From a virus: a DNA stretch of 23,778 nt. Shown here one piece after another: positions 6,223 through 23,778 of the stretch (position 1 is the first letter of the stretch; each line of letters starts with the position of its first letter). A model generated the notes under the pieces. The model was given only the letters and a program-made list of their open reading frames with translations. It was not told the origin of the DNA and did no database searches. The stretch covers positions 1-23,778 of the IMG/VR virus record IMGVR_UViG_3300021957_006654; one strand, 5' to 3'. Position numbers and translations under genes: made by a program.

Positions 6223-7235
6223 TGGCATATCAAAATATTCTAAAGAATTTAAAGGAGACCCCACCCCGAGCGTTAAACGATCACATTCTGATCGTTGATG
6301 CGATGAACACTCTAATTAGATCGTTCTCGCTGCTCAAAGCGATGAACCCATCAGGCTCCCATGTAGGTGGTCTGGTAGGGTTTCTTCGTTCTTTGGGGTA
6401 TGTTACTAGAATATTTGATCCAACAAGAGTTGTAGTTGTGTGGGACGGTAAAGGTGGATCAGGAAATAGGAAGAATATTGATCCTAACTATAAAGCACAA
6501 AGAGCTACCTCAAGAATTACCCATTGGGGTTTATACGATACCAAAGAAGAAGAGACTGAAGCACTAATAGGACAGTTATTTAGAACTCAAGATTATTTAG
6601 AGTGTTTACCAGTACAGCAAATGGTATTAGAAAAGTTAGAAGCCGATGATATAATGGCATATCTAGCTAAAAGAGCTTCATTAGCAGGTAAAAAAGTAAC
6701 AATTGTATCATCTGATAAAGACTTTTTACAGTTAGTAAATAATAATATAGAGGTATATGCTCCTGTTAAGAAGAAAACGTTTACAAAAGATAATATCTTT
6801 GAAGAGCTGAAGGTACTTCCTACAAACTATAATATAGTTAAAGCACTGTTAGGTGATAACTCAGATAACTTACAGGGGGTAAAAGGATTAGGTATTAAGA
6901 CTATTGTTTCTCAATTTCCTAAATTATTAACAGAAAAGACAGACTTAGAGTATGTTTATAAAGTAGCAGAAGAAAAATTAGATGAAAAGAAAATCTTTCC
7001 TAAAATTATTCATAACTGGGATAGAGTAGAGACTAATTTTAAGTTGATGGATCTACATAATACTGCATTAGATGATAAAGAAGTAGAGTATGTTGAAGAA
7101 ATATTAAAATCACCAATACCGGATTTACAGACAGGTGCATTTTTACATCATTTAGATCAAGATAAAATTGAAGGAGTTACAAAAAATACGGAAGGTTGGT
7201 TAGAAAACTTTAGAGGATTAACAACAGTAAAATGA
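6222..7235 (+). CDS. rnh: 5'-3' exonuclease/RNase H, FEN family
   Basis: 337 residues, GTG start overlapping the uvsX stop by one base. It removes RNA primers and flaps during lagging-strand synthesis, like T4 RNase H. The metal-binding acidic residues of the FEN family are visible in order: D26 (ILIVD26AMN), D75 (VVVVWD75G), E140-x-D142-D143, D165-x-D167 (SSDKDF), and D212-x2-D215 in the helix-three-turn-helix GDNSDNLQGVKGLG. Basic and aromatic residues between 80 and 105 (NRK, NYKAQR) match the substrate arch. All key acids are intact, so it should be active. It overlaps the next gene by four bases (ATGA). Confidence 0.88.
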   Translation: MAYQNILKNLKETPPRALNDHILIVDAMNTLIRSFSLLKAMNPSGSHVGGLVGFLRSLGYVTRIFDPTRVVVVWDGKGGSGNRKNIDPNYKAQRATSRITHWGLYDTKEEETEALIGQLFRTQDYLECLPVQQMVLEKLEADDIMAYLAKRASLAGKKVTIVSSDKDFLQLVNNNIEVYAPVKKKTFTKDNIFEELKVLPTNYNIVKALLGDNSDNLQGVKGLGIKTIVSQFPKLLTEKTDLEYVYKVAEEKLDEKKIFPKIIHNWDRVETNFKLMDLHNTALDDKEVEYVEEILKSPIPDLQTGAFLHHLDQDKIEGVTKNTEGWLENFRGLTTVK

Positions 7236-7648
7236 TTAAAGGAGTAGTAGCAGGTAATTTTGATGTGATACATCCAGGCTATATAGAAATGTTTAAAGAA
7301 TGTTCTAAGTACTGTACTCAGTTAATAGTATTTTTACATTCAGATCCTTCTATAGAGAGACCTGAAAAGTTAAAACCTATACTTTCGGTCGAAGAAAGAA
7401 AAGAAATATTACTTTCTATAAAGTATATTGATGATGTATACAGTTACACTTATGAAGTAGAATTATATGAACTTTTAAAATTAGGCAGTTTCGGTGTAAG
7501 GTTTTTAGGAGAAGATTATGTCGGTAAACCATATACAGGAGACGTTTTAAAAATACCAATACACTGGTTAGATAGAGGACATGGTTGGTCAACAACAAAA
7601 TATAAAAAATTAATAGCAGAAAGTTATGAAAAAAGCAATAATAGTTAG
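7232..7648 (+). CDS. Cytidylyltransferase-like nucleotidyltransferase (HPGY variant)
   Basis: 138 residues, ATGA overlap with the nuclease gene. It belongs to the HxGH nucleotidyltransferase superfamily, closest in pattern to TagD-like glycerol-3-phosphate cytidylyltransferases. The start is GVVAGNFDVIHPGYIEMF, with SVEERKEILLSIKYIDDV in the middle and the closing WSTTKYK motif that matches the usual ISTTxI signature. The second His of HxGH is Tyr (HPGY), which could weaken or retune catalysis. It would activate a small phosphate as a CDP or ADP derivative for glycan or surface chemistry; the substrate is unknown. A second member of the same superfamily overlaps its 3' end. Confidence 0.75.
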   Translation: MIKGVVAGNFDVIHPGYIEMFKECSKYCTQLIVFLHSDPSIERPEKLKPILSVEERKEILLSIKYIDDVYSYTYEVELYELLKLGSFGVRFLGEDYVGKPYTGDVLKIPIHWLDRGHGWSTTKYKKLIAESYEKSNNS

Positions 7649-8048
7649 CGGGTACTTTAACCCATTACACAAAGGTCATTTAGATTTATTTGAAAAAGCA
7701 AAAGAAATAGGTGACGCTCTCATAGTCATCGTTAATAACGATAAACAAAGAGAAATGAAAGGTTCTAAATTCTTTCAAGATGAAGAAGAAAGAGTTAGAA
7801 TTATAAGATCACTAAGCGTAGTTGATATGGCTTGGATTTCAATAGATAAAGATAGTACTCAAATCGAGACTTTAAAATGCATGTTTAATAAATTTCATGA
7901 GACTTATAAAATAGCTTTTGCTAACGGTGGAGATCAAAACAATGACACTATACCAGAAGCAAACATATGTAATCAGTATGGAATAGAGTTAATTGATGGA
8001 TTAGGAGATAAAATACAGTCTAGCAGTTGGTTGTTAGAAGAAAAATAA
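7626..8048 (+). CDS. HldE/RfaE-like nucleotidyltransferase
   Basis: 140 residues, starting inside the preceding gene (23-base overlap, different frame). The intact signature is HKGH in SGYFNPLHKGHLDLF. VVNM-type second strands are replaced by VIVNNDKQ, and a GGDQNNDTIPEANIC segment matches the GGDY..LPE region of the adenylyltransferase half of HldE. The ending IQSSSWLL stands where related enzymes have STTxL. Two tandem members with different signatures may act on different substrates or form a heterodimer. Placement inside the replication operon may be historical. The exact nucleotide and acceptor cannot be read from the sequence. Confidence 0.75.
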   Translation: MKKAIIVSGYFNPLHKGHLDLFEKAKEIGDALIVIVNNDKQREMKGSKFFQDEEERVRIIRSLSVVDMAWISIDKDSTQIETLKCMFNKFHETYKIAFANGGDQNNDTIPEANICNQYGIELIDGLGDKIQSSSWLLEEK

Positions 8049-13425: not shown

Positions 13426-13456
13426 CGTTTGCCTATACGCTTCAAATACCTGGCAA
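13424..13456 (+). promoter_or_regulatory. Possible pseudoknot between the 98-residue gene and queC
   Basis: AGCGT (13424-13428) pairs with ACGCT (13437-13441), and TTGCC (13429-13433) pairs with GGCAA (13452-13456). The order 1a-2a-1b-2b is that of an H-type pseudoknot, with a 10-base A-containing third loop. The first stem overlaps the upstream stop codon, and the element ends 17 bases before the queC ATG. The stems are short, so chance is a real possibility. It does not match the preQ1-I consensus that I know. Confidence 0.3.
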
Positions 13457-13473
13457 ATTTAATTACTATACAA

Positions 13474-14265
13474 ATGGAAAAAAATGTTGTAGTTAGTCTT
13501 AGCGGAGGGATGGACTCCTCAACTTTATTACTCAGATGTTTATCAGAGTATGATAATGTAACAGCTATATCTTTTGATTACGGTCAAAAACATAGAGTTG
13601 AACTTGAAAGAGCACAATCATTAGTGGATTATTTAAACGATAATGGTCAGTATGTTAATTATCAAGTTATTAAATTAGAAGGTTTGGTTAATTTATTAGA
13701 TTCAAATCTTGTAGAAGGAGGTGATGATGTACCAGAAGGTCATTATGAAGAAGAAAATATGGTAGCGACTGTGGTACCTAATAGAAATAAAATTTTCTCT
13801 TCTATTACTCAAGCAGTAGCTTTATCTATAGCTAAAAGAACTGAAGAAGAGTGTGATATCGCTCTAGGTATTCACGCTGGTGATCATGCAATTTACCCAG
13901 ACTGTAGACAAGAGTTTAGAGATGCTGATTATGAAGCATTTAAAATTGGTAATTGGGATGCAGATACTGTAGGTTTTTTCATACCTTATATAGAAACAGA
14001 TAAATTAGGAATATTAAAAGATGGGCAAGAATTGGTTAAAGAGCTTGGAATTAATTTTGAAGATGTATATAAACGTACTAATACTTCTTATAAGCCTTTT
14101 CCTAGCGGGAATAGCGACTATAAATCCGCAAGTTCAGTGGAAAGGATTGAAGCATTTATTGGCTTGGGTGTCGATGACCCTGTTCAATATGAGGACGAAA
14201 CTGGACCAGTAGATTATTCAGTAGCTAAAACACACGTAGAAAAATTATTAGCAGATTATGCGTAA
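13474..14265 (+). CDS. queC: QueC-like 7-cyano-7-deazaguanine synthase, zinc cysteines lost
   Basis: 263 residues from the ATG at 13474; a TTG 45 bases upstream is in frame but lies in a structured region. QueC converts 7-carboxy-7-deazaguanine to preQ0 using ATP and ammonia. The PP-loop is S10-G-G-M-D-S15. The FDYGQKH motif and a VVPNRNKIF segment match the family. The C-terminal zinc site, normally four Cys (SC...CxxCxxCVER), reads SY206...D215-Y-K-S218-A-S-S221-VER, so all four Cys are replaced while the flanking ERIEAF...GVDDP is kept. The fold is probably conserved with a changed or metal-free site. The product could be preQ0 or a related 7-substituted base. queD and queE lie about 6 kb downstream. 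Confidence 0.85.
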   Translation: MEKNVVVSLSGGMDSSTLLLRCLSEYDNVTAISFDYGQKHRVELERAQSLVDYLNDNGQYVNYQVIKLEGLVNLLDSNLVEGGDDVPEGHYEEENMVATVVPNRNKIFSSITQAVALSIAKRTEEECDIALGIHAGDHAIYPDCRQEFRDADYEAFKIGNWDADTVGFFIPYIETDKLGILKDGQELVKELGINFEDVYKRTNTSYKPFPSGNSDYKSASSVERIEAFIGLGVDDPVQYEDETGPVDYSVAKTHVEKLLADYA

Positions 14266-14739: not shown

Positions 14740-14811
14740 TGCGGGGTGGAGAAGTGGTATCTCGCCGGGCTCATAACCCGGAGGTCGCAGGTTCGAATCC
14801 TGTCCCCGCCA
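14740..14811 (+). tRNA. Initiator-type tRNA-fMet (CAT)
   Basis: A complete cloverleaf can be drawn. Acceptor GCGGGG (14741-14746) pairs with CCCCGC (14804-14809); T8 and G9 follow. D stem GAGA/TCTC (14749-14752, 14760-14763). Anticodon stem CCGGG/CCCGG (14765-14769, 14777-14781) with loop CTCATAA and anticodon CAT at 14772-14774. T arm GCAGG-TTCGAAT-CCTGT (14787-14803). Three initiator hallmarks are present: position 1 (T14740) and 72 (C14810) do not pair; the anticodon stem has three consecutive G:C pairs next to the loop; and the D stem has A11:T24. A73 is followed by CTA, so the CCA end would be added or repaired by host enzyme. The body resembles bacterial fMet tRNA. Confidence 0.9.
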
Positions 14812-14834
14812 CTACGTTTTTTAAAAATGTAATT

Positions 14835-15746: not shown

Positions 15747-15765
15747 TATTCAGTTATAATATATT

Positions 15766-15797
15766 GAGAGCCGCCTTGTGCGGCTTTCTCTATTTAT
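15766..15797 (+). terminator. Rho-independent terminator after the lipoprotein
   Basis: AGCCGC (15769-15774), five-base loop CTTGT, and GCGGCT (15780-15785), a six-pair GC-rich stem, flanked by GAG/CTC that can extend it and followed by a T-rich run. It stands out in this AT-rich DNA and separates the lipoprotein from the radical SAM gene. Confidence 0.7.
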
Positions 15798-15811
15798 ATA
15801 AAAGATATGTT

Positions 15812-16909
15812 ATGAATAAGGAAATTTTTAAAGACTATATATGTTCTAGACCATTTCTTACCTTAGATGTACACGATAATGATAGATATTTATGTTGCGC
15901 TGCATGGTTAAAAAAAGATCTTCCTAAAAATGTATCTCCAAAAGAAGCATGGGAATCTGAAGAAGCAAACTTAGTAAGAGAAAGTATCCTAGATGGTTCA
16001 TATAAGTATTGTGATTCTAATATGTGCCCTTTTCTTCATACTTTAAAAGTAAAAGGACATCCAGTAAAAGCAGATAATACTGATATGATGAATACCCTAA
16101 CTCTATTTAGGAAAGATAGTATATTACCTCCAAATGTCCAAAAAGCTATAGACGATTACAAAAAAGGAGAAAGCACACCTGAAACAGTCTTCTTTTCTTT
16201 TGATAGGACCTGTAATCTTGAATGTCCTTCCTGTCGTATTGAATTATTTACTGCAAACAGCAAAAAGATTAAAGAAGTAGAAGGTGATATAGAATTAATT
16301 AAAGAACAGTACAGCAGTACTTTAAAAAGGATATACATAACCGGTTCAGGAGACCCATTTGTATCGGTAGGTTTTAGAAATTTTTTAAGAAACTTTAAAA
16401 AATCTGATTGGCCTAAATTAGAAAATATTCATTTACATACTAATGCTACAAGGTGGACGAAAAAGATGTGGGATAGCATGAAAGAAGTTCAACCTTATAT
16501 TGGTACTTGTGAAATAAGTATAGATGCAGGTACAAAAGATACATACGAAAATAAAACTAGAATAAACGGCAATTGGGAAGAACTTATTGAAAATTTAAAA
16601 TTTATTGCAACTATACCTACAATAAGATTTATAAACACATCGTTTGTAGTACAGCAAAAAAATTACAAAGAAATGAAAATATTTTACAACTTAATTAGAG
16701 AAATATTTGATCATAAAGCTATGATATTTTTTAGTAAAATACAAGATTGGGGAGTTATGCAAGAAGGAGAGTTTATAAAACAAGAAGTACACAACCCTAA
16801 TCATCCAGAACACAGCGAATTTTTAAAAAGTGTAAGGGAGGTATTACCAGCTAAAAATGCATGGACAAATTTACATGAATTTACTTTAAAAACTAATAAG
16901 GTTATATAA
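15812..16909 (+). CDS. Radical SAM protein with N-terminal SPASM-like cysteines
   Basis: 365 residues; the ATG at 15812 is chosen because the upstream frame runs through the terminator. The canonical cluster motif is C134-N-L-E-C138-P-S-C141, followed by TGSGDP (SAM-binding glycine motif). Residues 1-75 carry five cysteines (C11, C28, C29, C67, C72) in a layout like the SPASM/twitch auxiliary-cluster domain, but placed before the barrel. The middle motif ISIDAGTKDTYE fits the family. SPASM proteins often act on peptides; some act on sugars or cofactors. It is followed by a 2OG oxygenase and lies in a cassette with a carbamoyltransferase. It needs a reductant, which the phage FNR/ferredoxin could supply. 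Confidence 0.8.
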   Translation: MNKEIFKDYICSRPFLTLDVHDNDRYLCCAAWLKKDLPKNVSPKEAWESEEANLVRESILDGSYKYCDSNMCPFLHTLKVKGHPVKADNTDMMNTLTLFRKDSILPPNVQKAIDDYKKGESTPETVFFSFDRTCNLECPSCRIELFTANSKKIKEVEGDIELIKEQYSSTLKRIYITGSGDPFVSVGFRNFLRNFKKSDWPKLENIHLHTNATRWTKKMWDSMKEVQPYIGTCEISIDAGTKDTYENKTRINGNWEELIENLKFIATIPTIRFINTSFVVQQKNYKEMKIFYNLIREIFDHKAMIFFSKIQDWGVMQEGEFIKQEVHNPNHPEHSEFLKSVREVLPAKNAWTNLHEFTLKTNKVI

Positions 16910-16918
16910 AATTTATAT

Positions 16919-17491
16919 ATGTTACTACATCAAAAGGTTTTATTTAGTAAGCAAGAAACTCAAAAAATTATATCTTATGCAAATAAGTTAGAAGATAGAG
17001 TTATAGGAACATATCACCCTAATATAAACGATGGCCAACACGATCCAGATGGAGGTCATAATTTAGCAGATCATATAGCTTGGCATAGTTCAGATGAGTA
17101 CAATTGGATGTCTCATAGAATAATAGAATGGCTTAAATCCCTAAATCTTAAATATCAAATTAATAATTTAGGGTATGAATTTATAGTACAGAAGTATTTG
17201 AAAGGTTATGAATTTAAACCTCACATTGACCACGTATTATCAGTAGATAAAAAAACTATACTAAGAGAGAGACTGTATACTATTTTAATACAGTTAGCTA
17301 ATGAGAATGACTATAGTGGAGGAGGACTATTCGTAGATAATAACGGAACTAATCAAATAAATAAAGCACCAGGTAATGTCTGTATATTCGGACCAGCTCA
17401 ATTGCATTGGGTTGAAAAAATAACTGAGGGAGAAAGATGGAGCTGTACAATATTTCTTGAAAAAGATGCTTTAATAAAAAGTTTGATATAA
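16919..17491 (+). CDS. 2-oxoglutarate/Fe(II) oxygenase, prolyl-hydroxylase-like
   Basis: 190 residues. Iron-binding residues: H102-x-D104 (KPHIDH) and H163 (QLHWVEKI), with R173 (GERW) placed for 2-oxoglutarate. The hallmark YSGGGLFV loop and the PGNVCIFGPAQLHWV strand match the double-stranded beta-helix family. The complete set suggests an active hydroxylase. The substrate may be a phage or host peptide or a nucleobase; the neighbours (radical SAM, second oxygenase, carbamoyltransferase) favour a modification pathway. A promoter lies over its 3' end. Confidence 0.82.
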   Translation: MLLHQKVLFSKQETQKIISYANKLEDRVIGTYHPNINDGQHDPDGGHNLADHIAWHSSDEYNWMSHRIIEWLKSLNLKYQINNLGYEFIVQKYLKGYEFKPHIDHVLSVDKKTILRERLYTILIQLANENDYSGGGLFVDNNGTNQINKAPGNVCIFGPAQLHWVEKITEGERWSCTIFLEKDALIKSLI

Positions 17492-20145: not shown

Positions 20146-20634
20146 ATGGGAAAATATCAATCAACAAAGCTATTTGACAATTATTCAGTAGCATTAAGAC
20201 AACATAAAGCAGCTCATTCACATTGTGAGTTATTACACGGGTATGCTTTAAAATTTAAAGTATGGTTCGAATCTATTGAACCAATGGAAGAAAAACAATT
20301 AGACGAAATGAATTGGATTATGGATTATGGTGGATTTAAATCTACTGATGCAGAACCAACTCCTGGTAACGGTCTAAAAGATTGGATGAATTATATGTGG
20401 GATCATACTGTATTAATTGAAAAAGATGATCCTCAATTAGAGACATTTAAATACATGGAGGAATTAGGTCTATGTGCTCTAAGAGTAATGGATGCTATGG
20501 GTGCAGAATCTTGTGCTAAAATGGTATTCGATAAGTTTAACGAAAGAATGGCTTTAACAGGCGGAGGTAGAGTCAAAGTAGTTAAAGTAGAATGTTGGGA
20601 AGCAGAGAGAAACTCATCAATATACGAAGGTTAA
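20146..20634 (+). CDS. queD: QueD, 6-carboxytetrahydropterin synthase-like
   Basis: 162 residues. It makes 6-carboxy-tetrahydropterin from dihydroneopterin triphosphate in the 7-deazaguanine pathway. Features: KAAH24 (first zinc His), C27 (catalytic Cys), H31-G-Y33 where the usual motif is HGH, WIMDYGGFK (family motif), WDHTVLIEKDD (catalytic His region) and a final ECWEAERNSSIY (Glu that binds the pterin). The third zinc His is Tyr33; His26 might substitute. Its stop overlaps the queE ATG (TAATG). Confidence 0.85.
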   Translation: MGKYQSTKLFDNYSVALRQHKAAHSHCELLHGYALKFKVWFESIEPMEEKQLDEMNWIMDYGGFKSTDAEPTPGNGLKDWMNYMWDHTVLIEKDDPQLETFKYMEELGLCALRVMDAMGAESCAKMVFDKFNERMALTGGGRVKVVKVECWEAERNSSIYEG

Positions 20635-21413
20635 TGTCATTAGGTAGAGTAGAAGATTACGATAAAAACTTACCTATTGTAGAAATCTATACTGCTGTTC
20701 AATCTGAAGGTTCAAGAGCAGGGTATCCTACAGTTGTTATTAGAACTACTGGATGTACTCATAGATGTTACTTTGGAGAAGGAGGATGGTGTGATAGTTG
20801 GTATACTTCTATACATCCAGAAAAAGGTAAGTTTACCTTTAATGATATTATCAAAATGTATGATGATAATCCACATATATCTGAAATGATGCTAACAGGG
20901 GGTTCTCCTACTATGCATAAAAAACTTGTTAACGAACTAACACATCTTGCTCATGAGAGAGATATCTTCATTACTATGGAAAATGAAGGAAGTCATTTCC
21001 TTCCTACTGACTTTCCTATTAACCTCCTTAGTATTAGTCCTAAATTCAGTAATTCAGTTCCTGTTATCGGGGTTGAGACTCCTGAAGGAAAAATTACTGA
21101 TGAGAGAATGATTAAACAGCATAATAAGTTTAGACTTAATTATCCTGCAATAAAAGAAAGTATAGCATATCATTCAGATTACCATATTAAACCTGTATGG
21201 GACGGTAAAGATGAAAATGCTCTTAAAGAAATATTAGAGTGTTTAGAAATATTAGATACTCCTCAGGATAAAGTATGGTTTATGCCGGCAGGAGATAGTA
21301 GAGAAGCTTTACATAAGTCTTACCCTATATTATTTGATTGGGTGAGAGATAATGGTTATAGAATGACATGGAGACCCCATATCATAGCATTTGAAGATCA
21401 AAGAGAAGTATAA
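20634..21413 (+). CDS. queE: QueE, 7-carboxy-7-deazaguanine synthase
   Basis: 259 residues from the ATG at 20634, which overlaps the queD stop (TAATG); an in-frame ATG 42 bases upstream lies inside queD. A radical SAM enzyme converting carboxy-tetrahydropterin to 7-carboxy-7-deazaguanine. The start has EIYTAVQSEG and a RTTGC motif. The cluster cysteines are C41-x3-C45-x7-C53 rather than CxxxCxxC, with YFGEGGW between the last two; QueE proteins are known for unusual spacings. LTGGSPTM binds SAM, and SISPKFSNS fits the family. It needs reduced ferredoxin or flavodoxin, and an FNR gene starts at its stop codon. Confidence 0.88.
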   Translation: MSLGRVEDYDKNLPIVEIYTAVQSEGSRAGYPTVVIRTTGCTHRCYFGEGGWCDSWYTSIHPEKGKFTFNDIIKMYDDNPHISEMMLTGGSPTMHKKLVNELTHLAHERDIFITMENEGSHFLPTDFPINLLSISPKFSNSVPVIGVETPEGKITDERMIKQHNKFRLNYPAIKESIAYHSDYHIKPVWDGKDENALKEILECLEILDTPQDKVWFMPAGDSREALHKSYPILFDWVRDNGYRMTWRPHIIAFEDQREV

Positions 21414-22120
21414 TGAACGTAGCAGTATTAGTAGATATAATTAAAGAGACAAAATCAAATTGGAGATTTATATTTGAAGATCCATTATATGATGAATTAA
21501 AGTATACTTCTGGTGAATTAATACAACTATGTATGAAACCAGGATTAGAAGGATCAGCTGTAAGAAACTACTCGGTAGCATCTTGGCCAGATGGAACAAA
21601 TAAATTTGAACTTATAGTAACTTACCTAAAGGGTGGTGCTATGAGTGAATACTTGTTCAATGAAGCAAAGATAGGAGATGAGTTTATTTACAGAGGACCA
21701 ATGGGGAGTTTTGTCTTACCAGAAAAGATTGATAGAGATATTTTCTTTATCTCTACTGGATCTGGTATCAGTCCATTTAGATCTATGATCAACTATGTTG
21801 CTGAAAATGATATTAAAACTAAAGATATTAAATTATTTTTTGGAACAAGAACACAAGAAGATATATGTTATTGGGATGAAATGAAATTACTAGAACAAAT
21901 GGTTCCTAATTTCGAATTTGTACCAGTATTATCAAGAGAGGAATGGGACGGTAAAACAGGATATGTTCACGAACATTACTTAGATTTAATTGATAATAGA
22001 AAAGATAAACCCCTTATTTATTATTGTGGGTGGGATCGTATGATTAGAGAAGGAAGAGGCCATCTAGCTGAAAGAGGTTTTGAGATGATAAAAGATATAA
22101 GAGTTGAAATATTTGGTTAA
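21413..22120 (+). CDS. Ferredoxin-NAD(P)+ reductase-like flavoprotein
   Basis: 235 residues, start overlapping the queE stop by one base. The FAD-binding motif is R51-N-Y-S54, followed by LKGGAMSEYL, GPMGSF, the NAD(P) glycine motif TGSGISPFRSM and a C-terminal YYCGWDRMIREG replacing the usual CGPP. No iron-sulfur domain is fused, so it is a stand-alone reductase. Known chemistry: hydride from NAD(P)H to one-electron carriers. Adjacent genes (QueE before, ferredoxin after) argue it feeds electrons to the phage radical SAM enzymes. Confidence 0.85.
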   Translation: MNVAVLVDIIKETKSNWRFIFEDPLYDELKYTSGELIQLCMKPGLEGSAVRNYSVASWPDGTNKFELIVTYLKGGAMSEYLFNEAKIGDEFIYRGPMGSFVLPEKIDRDIFFISTGSGISPFRSMINYVAENDIKTKDIKLFFGTRTQEDICYWDEMKLLEQMVPNFEFVPVLSREEWDGKTGYVHEHYLDLIDNRKDKPLIYYCGWDRMIREGRGHLAERGFEMIKDIRVEIFG

Positions 22121-22135
22121 ATAAATAAATAAAAA

Positions 22136-22348
22136 ATGGCACAGTATACAGTTATAAAGATGCTTAAAAAAGAGTTCGAAGCTAAAAGATCGAAAGCTTT
22201 ATTGACGTTAGAGTTACTAACAGAGCATCCAGCAGGTATTGGTGATCATTCTACAGAAGATTTCTATAAGAATGCAACAGAAGCAATTACTGCATTAGCA
22301 GAAGCAGACGATGTACTAGAGACTATAGAAAGACACTTCGGAGAATGA
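22136..22348 (+). CDS. Small helical acidic protein
   Basis: 70 residues, mostly helix (KKEFEAKRSKALLTLELL, then NATEAITALAEADDVLETIERHFGE) with a GIGDHSTEDFY turn. No cysteine or known motif. Overlaps the ferredoxin start by four bases (ATGA), so it may be a partner or an unrelated conserved phage protein. Function unknown. Confidence 0.65.
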   Translation: MAQYTVIKMLKKEFEAKRSKALLTLELLTEHPAGIGDHSTEDFYKNATEAITALAEADDVLETIERHFGE

Positions 22349-22653
22349 GTTACATAATCGGTAAACCTTGTGAGTCTACTTGCGATACAGCTTGTGTTGC
22401 AGTATGCCCGGTGGATTGTATTAATGGACCTATAGAAGTTGAAGGACTAGGGCAGGAAGTTGATGGGATGAAAATAGGTCCAAAAGACATGTTATATATT
22501 AATCCCGAAGAGTGTATTGATTGCGGAGCTTGTTTGCCTGAATGCCCAGTTGATGCTATTTATGATAGCGAGGAGGATGCTATCTTAAAGGATGGAACCG
22601 ATGAATACGTTAATAGAAATTATAAATTTTATGGTCTTGAATACAAAGGTTAG
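22345..22653 (+). CDS. Ferredoxin, 7Fe/FdxA-like
   Basis: 102 residues. First cluster region C9-x7-C17-x3-C21-P with an extra C13 and C25; second region C57-x2-C60-x2-C63-x3-C67-P, a classical [4Fe-4S] motif. The first spacing is that of 7Fe ferredoxins ([3Fe-4S] plus [4Fe-4S]), although C13 could allow a second [4Fe-4S]. It is a small soluble electron carrier, probably between the neighbouring FNR and QueE or the radical SAM protein at 15812. Confidence 0.88.
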   Translation: MSYIIGKPCESTCDTACVAVCPVDCINGPIEVEGLGQEVDGMKIGPKDMLYINPEECIDCGACLPECPVDAIYDSEEDAILKDGTDEYVNRNYKFYGLEYKG

Positions 22654-23269
22654 AATTTTTCTAACAAGTCTATTAGTTTTAACGTTATCTTGTACAAAAG
22701 CACAGGATTTACGAAAACCTACAGGTAATACAGAATTAAGAGAAGAAGTTATAATTGATACTGATATCTTTACTGTAATTTACTCAGAAACAAAAGAACA
22801 GCCACTTGAACTTACTTATAGATCTAGTAATAGACCTAAAAATGTAGATAGAGGGTCTATGAACTTTTATACTGAAGATGATTACCATACATCTGATAAT
22901 GCTGACTACTATAAAAACGTATGGGATAAAGGTCATCTCGCACCTGCAGCAACATTCTCTGATTCTAGAGAAAATTTAAAACAGACATTCACCTATCTAA
23001 ATAGCGCTCTACAAAACCAATACCTTAATAGAGGAGCATGGAGATTATTAGAAGAGCAAGAAAGAAGATGGGATGATGCACAGGAATTAATAGTAACTGT
23101 ATTTATACAATTTTCGGATTCTATATTACCCACAGGAGCTAACATTCCTTCCTATTTCACCAAACAAATATATTTCACAGATGATAACGAATATAAATGT
23201 TACTACTTTCCTAATGAAAGACCTGAAAAGGACTGGGAAGAGTACCTTATAGAGTGCGATCATGACTAG
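22631..23269 (+). CDS. Exported DNA/RNA non-specific endonuclease (NUC family)
   Basis: 212 residues from the ATG at 22631, which gives a good signal peptide (NTKVRIFLTSLLVLTLSCTKAQ); an earlier ATG lies deep in the ferredoxin gene. Cleavage may be after TKA or at the Cys as a lipoprotein. The beta-beta-alpha-metal active site is D99-K100-G-H102-LAPA (usually DRGH), with the metal Asn N124 (LNSALQ) and E141 (WRLLEE). The key His, Asn and Glu are present, so activity is likely. It would cut DNA or RNA outside the cytoplasm. Overlaps the ferredoxin by 23 bases. The gap to the TonB receptor holds a hairpin and a palindrome. Confidence 0.85.
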   Translation: MVLNTKVRIFLTSLLVLTLSCTKAQDLRKPTGNTELREEVIIDTDIFTVIYSETKEQPLELTYRSSNRPKNVDRGSMNFYTEDDYHTSDNADYYKNVWDKGHLAPAATFSDSRENLKQTFTYLNSALQNQYLNRGAWRLLEEQERRWDDAQELIVTVFIQFSDSILPTGANIPSYFTKQIYFTDDNEYKCYYFPNERPEKDWEEYLIECDHD

Positions 23270-23317: not shown

Positions 23318-23336
23318 ATGTAAAGGTTATATTTTG

Positions 23337-23352
23337 TTTAATTTAAATTAAA
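23337..23352 (+). repeat. AT palindrome five bases before the TonB receptor start
   Basis: TTTAATTTAAATTAAA is a perfect 16-base palindrome ending five bases before the ATG at 23358. The element TATATTTTG (23328-23336) directly before it is a near match to the Bacteroidota -7 box, so a promoter with an overlapping operator is possible, but such AT runs also arise by chance here. Confidence 0.3.
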
Positions 23353-23357
23353 TTTTA

Positions 23358-23778
23358 ATGAGAAAACTCGTTACACTACTGTTAGTTTTTCTAACATTAG
23401 GAGCTTACGCTCAAGACAGAGGTGGTGACCAAAAAGAGGTTATCATTGAAAAGCTTGAAGAAGTAGTAGTTACATCGGGTGTTATTGACGTTGCCAAAGA
23501 AAGGGAGACGCCAATCGCCGTAAGTACTATTTCAGCTCAAGAAGTTCAATTAAAGACAGGTAATTTAGAATTTCCTGAAATAATGAACAAGACACCAGGT
23601 GTCTATGCTACAAAACAAGGAGGTGGATATGGTGATAGCCGTATTTCATTGAGAGGTTTTGATCAGCGTAATACATCTTTCCTTATCAACGGACAACCGG
23701 TCAATGATATGGAAAACGGTTGGGTGTATTGGTCAAACTGGGCTGGATTAACTGATGTTGCATCAGGTATTCAGATCC
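23358..23778 (+). CDS. TonB-dependent outer-membrane receptor (3' truncated)
   Basis: 140 codons visible. A signal peptide (RKLVTLLLVFLTLGAYAQ, cleavage before Gln) is followed by a TonB-box-like EEVVVTSGVID and a plug domain: TPIAVSTISAQEV, FPEIMNKTPGVYATKQGGG, SRISLRGFDQRNTSFLINGQPVND. The order matches TonB-dependent receptors of Bacteroidota. No N-terminal carboxypeptidase-like domain is present, unlike SusC. The barrel lies beyond the window. It would import large nutrients (siderophores, glycans, vitamins) using TonB energy. Base composition appears slightly less AT-rich than the replication genes, hinting at recent acquisition from a host. Confidence 0.9.
   Translation, partial: MRKLVTLLLVFLTLGAYAQDRGGDQKEVIIEKLEEVVVTSGVIDVAKERETPIAVSTISAQEVQLKTGNLEFPEIMNKTPGVYATKQGGGYGDSRISLRGFDQRNTSFLINGQPVNDMENGWVYWSNWAGLTDVASGIQI

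Follow-up and report, generated by a model that had tools for sequence, protein, structure and literature searches.

The window analysed here (the whole stretch of 23,778 bp, which is a complete IMG/VR record) belongs to a marine virus of Bacteroidota and ends within the gene of a TonB-dependent receptor (TBDT), and this gene is almost certainly a genuine phage-borne one. Of the three roles put forward in the original prediction (wider nutrient uptake, a decoy, or replacement of a phage receptor), nutrient uptake appears the best supported, with nucleic-acid fragments as the candidate substrate.

Receptor gene and its surroundings

Judged from the sequence, the segment at the 3' end of the window comprises codons 1-140 of a TBDT gene of the Bacteroidota type (Table 1). 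The open reading frame (23358-23777, + strand, 140 aa in the list of reading frames) is open at the contig end and runs past the end of the record, so that the window holds ~1/6 of the gene and the remaining ~5/6, including the whole barrel, lies beyond. The signal peptide, TonB box and plug that had been predicted for a receptor of the Bacteroidota type are borne out by the reading frame, the Pfam match and inspection of the sequence. The barrel and the integrity of the gene were judged on relatives, the window's own copy being incomplete. The relatives L005 and L033 possess the beta-barrel domain (PF00593), with both plug and barrel above the Pfam cut-off, and the TonB box, plug and barrel are strongly conserved in the alignment (A1). 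A structure model calculated from 31 sequences gives a strand-rich barrel of low confidence (mean pLDDT 65.5; below 50 for the plug) and is uninformative as to the ligand. The phage relatives have one of two architectures, which differ in whether an N-terminal CarbopepD domain is present, and the window's form lacks it. Membership in the SusC/RagA group was rejected (TIGR04056 has no match in L005 and scores 88.6 in L033, against a cut-off of 368). Among the neighbours of the receptor nothing resembling SusD stood out on an inspection made without a SusD profile.

Table 1. Features at the 3' end of the window
Feature	Position	Strand	Basis and remarks
Radical SAM protein, QueE-like by context	20592..21413	+	Pfam Radical_SAM 2.8e-5, below curated cut-off; locus comparison
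FAD/NAD-binding reductase	21413..22120	+	Pfam NAD_binding_1 2.3e-21
4Fe-4S ferredoxin	22345..22653	+	Pfam Fer4 3.4e-9; order kept in relatives
Endonuclease_NS, secreted, DNA/RNA non-specific	22631..23269	+	Pfam PF01223, 6.8e-21; start inferred, longest ORF from 22592
Leader element GGTTATATTTTGTTTAA with TGTTTAA, upstream of receptor	23325..23341	+	Motif counts upstream of genes
TBDT, N-terminal part	23358..23778	+	ORF; Plug match; 82-86% identity to full-length viral relatives; cut by contig end
Receptor signal peptide MRKLVTLLLVFLTLGAYAQ, ~19 codons	23358..23414	+	Read by eye from sequence
TonB box LEEVVVTSG of receptor	23454..23480	+	Read by eye; conserved in alignment A1
Receptor Plug domain (part)	23499..23723	+	Pfam PF07715, E = 1.7e-13, residues 48-122

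All main genes of the window are located on the + strand. The receptor had been described as directly following phage metabolic genes on the same strand. The gene next to it is not the ferredoxin but that of the Endonuclease_NS, which the original prediction does not mention. The product of the latter shows a lipobox-like signal (LTLSC, read from the sequence). The QueE-like gene, preceded by a PTPS (QueD-like) gene, served as the anchor of the empty-site comparison described below.

Of 81 phage receptor genes, 43 have the TGTTTAA motif of the leader element in the 150 bp before them, compared with 8/699 other phage genes and 5/74 bacterial receptor genes, an enrichment that is descriptive only, because the motif was chosen by visual inspection ahead of the count and the sequences share ancestry. 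Taken by itself, the five-base GGTTA part is frequent in the background (78/699).

Elsewhere in the window, QueC (PF06508) is encoded at 13429-14265 and the PTPS/QueD-like and QueE-like proteins at 20146-21413, a set that would fit 7-deazaguanine DNA modification. A carbamoyltransferase (PF16861 and PF02543, 18126-19766) is conserved in the relatives. Two cytidylyltransferase-like proteins lie in tandem at 7232-8048, and a radical SAM protein is followed by a 2OG-Fe(II) oxygenase-like protein at 15764-17491. As a tRNA-Met gene (anticodon CAT) occupies 14740-14812, the 335-aa reading frame listed from 14739 starts too early, its true start being probably near 14800.

Phage origin of the junction

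The replication block of the window (polymerase, SSB, UvsX-like recombinase, exonuclease, DnaB) has the annotated gene order of Flavobacterium phage vB_FspM_immuto_2-6A (NC_055915; immuto), a cultured Baltic phage of Flavobacterium sp. LMO8, and the RNR, thioredoxin and QueC genes follow its order as well. With NrdA proteins 83% identical between the two, the window's lineage is, by these comparisons, related to immuto. No TBDT was found in the immuto genome (NC_055915), and its own Endonuclease_NS differs in following the RNR genes and in belonging to another branch.

Within the window's lineage the order of genes is carbamoyltransferase, PTPS, QueE-like, ferredoxin, nuclease and receptor. 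The window aligns without a break from the ferredoxin through the nuclease into the receptor with three other contigs (L011, L005 and L016), and in two pieces across the ferredoxin-receptor region with a fourth (L014), at 71-81% DNA identity in both cases. Extension beyond the receptor, proposed earlier as a check, is provided by the relatives, which have phage genes on both sides of it; in several contigs the genes that follow it encode an S1/P1 nuclease and a small membrane protein and, after these, an AAA_28 kinase-like and a phosphoribosyltransferase-like protein. A T4-like Gp23 capsid gene is present on 5 of the 29 receptor-bearing records tested; these are 75-252 kb long and include those of L012 (191 kb) and L053 (252 kb). 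The other 24 records are fragments, in which the absence of Gp23 says little. The PHROG terminase search is a weak test, since bacterial controls match too. One further contig (L252, 7.2 kb) encodes a QueE-like protein 100% identical to that of the window and ends before the receptor.

An artefact, in the form of host DNA fused to a phage contig or of a prophage boundary, is extremely improbable. The contig does stop within the gene, and it does so where the plug is most conserved; sequence shared with bacterial copies may cause assemblies to break there. Against this, other contigs have the junction too, relatives carry phage genes on either side of the receptor, and the nearest bacterial copies are at most ~76% identical to the phage copy L005. 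The exception, L097, is filed as a bacterial MAG and is itself a phage sequence (labelled phage in the tree). A chimeric join and a prophage edge, either of which had been named as a way in which the prediction could fail, are thus ruled out by the unbroken junction shared with L011, L005 and L016 and by the position of the receptor inside a conserved phage gene order in the relatives. Host contamination is ruled out for the window's lineage, within the best 80 of the 416 IMG/VR stretches with relatives, by the phage gene order and the Gp23-bearing records.

Viral and bacterial relatives

Relatives of the 140-aa query are encoded by 416 IMG/VR stretches, the best 80 of which were analysed. The copies comprise 67 longer than 780 aa (range 824-924 aa) and 14 shorter ones, the window's included, all of which touch a contig end. 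Internal breaks are found in 0 of the 81 copies, and so the broken barrel that had also been considered is not seen in the relatives. The dN/dS values of nine pairs of copies are 0.05-0.21, and the receptor is under purifying selection. It is a phage cargo gene: the copies of the relatives are parts of phage genomes, are unbroken and evolve under selection.

The receptor is an accessory gene in the window's lineage. Among the 61 loci that share the QueE-like gene and could be evaluated, 4 have it (window included), a proportion drawn from the 80 loci nearest in that gene and no population estimate; others keep a nuclease or phosphoribosyltransferase slot without the receptor. A second receptor-bearing phage lineage (L025, L044, L052, L062 and similar) has GroEL-/GroES-like genes, as recognised by eye, and a third (L018, L028, L097) encodes a very long protein (~2,150-2,290 aa) close to the receptor, on the other strand.

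The view that such transporters are rarely described in phages holds for the open literature searched, in which only those of the megaphages Mar_Mega_1 and LR745206 were found (PMC9723777; earlier reports may exist elsewhere), but not for metagenomic viral contigs, as the 416 stretches with the gene demonstrate. What the megaphages share is a phage-encoded TBDT gene ('SusC'), for which a role in increasing nutrient uptake by the infected cell has been proposed (PMC9723777). The differences are that LR745206 is a megaphage of ~635 kb, that the megaphage receptor is only ~31% identical over 24% of L005, and that no nuclease neighbourhood is described for it in the relevant passage of that paper (PMC9723777).

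Bacterial relatives, with up to ~76% identity to L005, are mostly from marine Bacteroidota (one-genome-per-species data). A FastTree phylogeny with 146 rows requires 10 changes of the phage label, and its well-supported branches alone demand at least 6. Because the phage copies form several clades scattered among the bacterial ones, the receptor appears to have been captured or exchanged several times, in one direction or the other.

The commonest bacterial copies, as in the marine Flavobacteriaceae loci L088 and L117, belong to the same family (~70% identity, nearly full length) and differ in being chromosomal, with housekeeping genes around them (pgi, M23 peptidase, patatin-like, uvrC), and in having no adjoining nuclease. 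This pgi neighbourhood offers no clue to the substrate or to nucleotides. The bacterial Arcticimaribacter locus (L086) resembles the phage loci, with the receptor followed directly by an S1/P1 nuclease of the phage branch, and differs from them by the additional CNT nucleoside transporter, which was not seen in phage loci. It holds the receptor, S1/P1, the CNT transporter, a LOG-type protein and Endonuclease_NS together.

Genes linked to the receptor

Gene linkage is the strongest clue to function that the sequences offer. In the 80 phage loci, whose counts (each gene taken anywhere in the stretch) are not independent because the contigs are related, an S1/P1 nuclease (PF02265, 2e-60) is found in 20, Endonuclease_NS in 14, a kinase-like gene in 40, an IMPDH/GMP-reductase gene in 19, in most of them directly upstream of the receptor, and SNase in 9, sometimes 7 kb from the receptor. 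About half of the phage loci have no nuclease near the receptor in the stretches examined.

The S1/P1 gene is nearly always 1-4 genes downstream of the receptor. In the reciprocal scan of 18 S1/P1 loci the receptor is upstream in 15; of the others, L171 is cut at the receptor end, and L176 and the distant L177 are without a receptor. The S1/P1 proteins of the phages and Arcticimaribacter group apart from 40 other flavobacterial ones (starred branch of a quick tree, with the bacterial set gathered using the Arcticimaribacter protein as query). The closest bacterial kin of the phage S1/P1, those of Arcticimaribacter, also adjoin the receptor, and a nucleoside transporter gene is close by. General flavobacterial S1/P1 genes were not near a receptor or a nucleoside transporter (20 genomes/loci).

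In the case of the window-type Endonuclease_NS the linkage is loose. It occurs mostly without the receptor, which is present in 2 of 14 loci of the reciprocal scan, a result that gives no support to an exclusive pairing of the two. Sister phages have the nuclease slot without the receptor, and part of the neighbourhood may therefore predate the receptor insertion. Nucleotide genes are abundant in phage early regions regardless, which weakens the argument from neighbourhood.

Proposed function

We propose that the receptor is a real, selected cargo of putatively lytic-type, T4-like phages of Bacteroidota. It would be expressed by the phage during infection and, to judge from its signal peptide and C-terminal barrel signal, be delivered by the host Sec/BAM route to the outer membrane. 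The TonB box, as expected for the family, would couple it to host TonB-ExbBD and so drive active import of a ligand. The gene neighbourhood suggests, as the most likely ligand, a product of the degradation of dissolved DNA or RNA: the adjacent secreted Endonuclease_NS and S1/P1 would trim nucleic acids outside the cell or in the periplasm, and the products would pass through salvage and RNR to supply nucleotides and phosphate for phage DNA synthesis. With good confidence the receptor may be taken to work as an uptake transporter, and the reading as uptake cargo, with the ligand left open, is probable. Uptake is thus likely, and a ligand derived from nucleic acids, a tentative choice with somewhat less than an even chance, is a hypothesis only, because the S1/P1 linkage is opposed by the behaviour of Endonuclease_NS and of S1/P1 in general.

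The receptor could also serve the uptake of a different scarce nutrient (iron chelate, cobalamin, peptide or glycan), in which case its nuclease neighbours would be there by coincidence; this alternative is possible, although we do not favour it. TBDTs commonly carry such ligands, the receptor shows weak, sub-cut-off similarity to models of siderophore, haem-protein and B12 receptors, the nuclease slot is found without the receptor, and the bacterial copies sit in a housekeeping neighbourhood. On the other side, none of the curated substrate families reaches its cut-off, no riboswitch, including cobalamin, was detected in seven sources (only a tRNA), and S1/P1 is tightly linked to the receptor. 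No solved structure of a relative offers a matching ligand; the only match, to the ferric enterobactin receptor, is at the level of the plug. In respect to nucleic acids, no report of their uptake by a TBDT was found in the open literature searched.

In exclusion or decoy, a rather unlikely alternative, the phage receptor would displace or mask host receptors or compete for TonB, and the nucleases would attack rival phage DNA in the periplasm. TBDTs are known phage receptors, and the temperate phage PA-2 replaces a host porin; secreted nucleases beside the receptor fit this role equally well. However, TonB box, plug and barrel are strongly conserved, which suggests a working transporter and not a mask, and exclusion has no need of nearby nucleotide-salvage genes.

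Implications

For the most part, the uptake genes described in phages act in the periplasm or at the inner membrane (e.g. pstS), whereas the phages considered here carry the energised outer-membrane gate itself, which controls the entry of many nutrients in Bacteroidota. A working receptor would open a new diet to infected cells, and phage recycling of dissolved nucleic acids is made directly testable by the link to secreted nucleases. That marine Bacteroidota phages possess a transferable nucleic-acid foraging cassette, consisting of a TonB-driven outer-membrane importer of oligonucleotides or nucleotides, secreted nucleases and salvage genes, is a speculative extension with odds against it; if true, the infected cell would feed on dissolved DNA and RNA to build phage genomes. 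If it works, the phage receptor may also help to identify the substrate of a bacterial TBDT that is widespread and uncharacterised.
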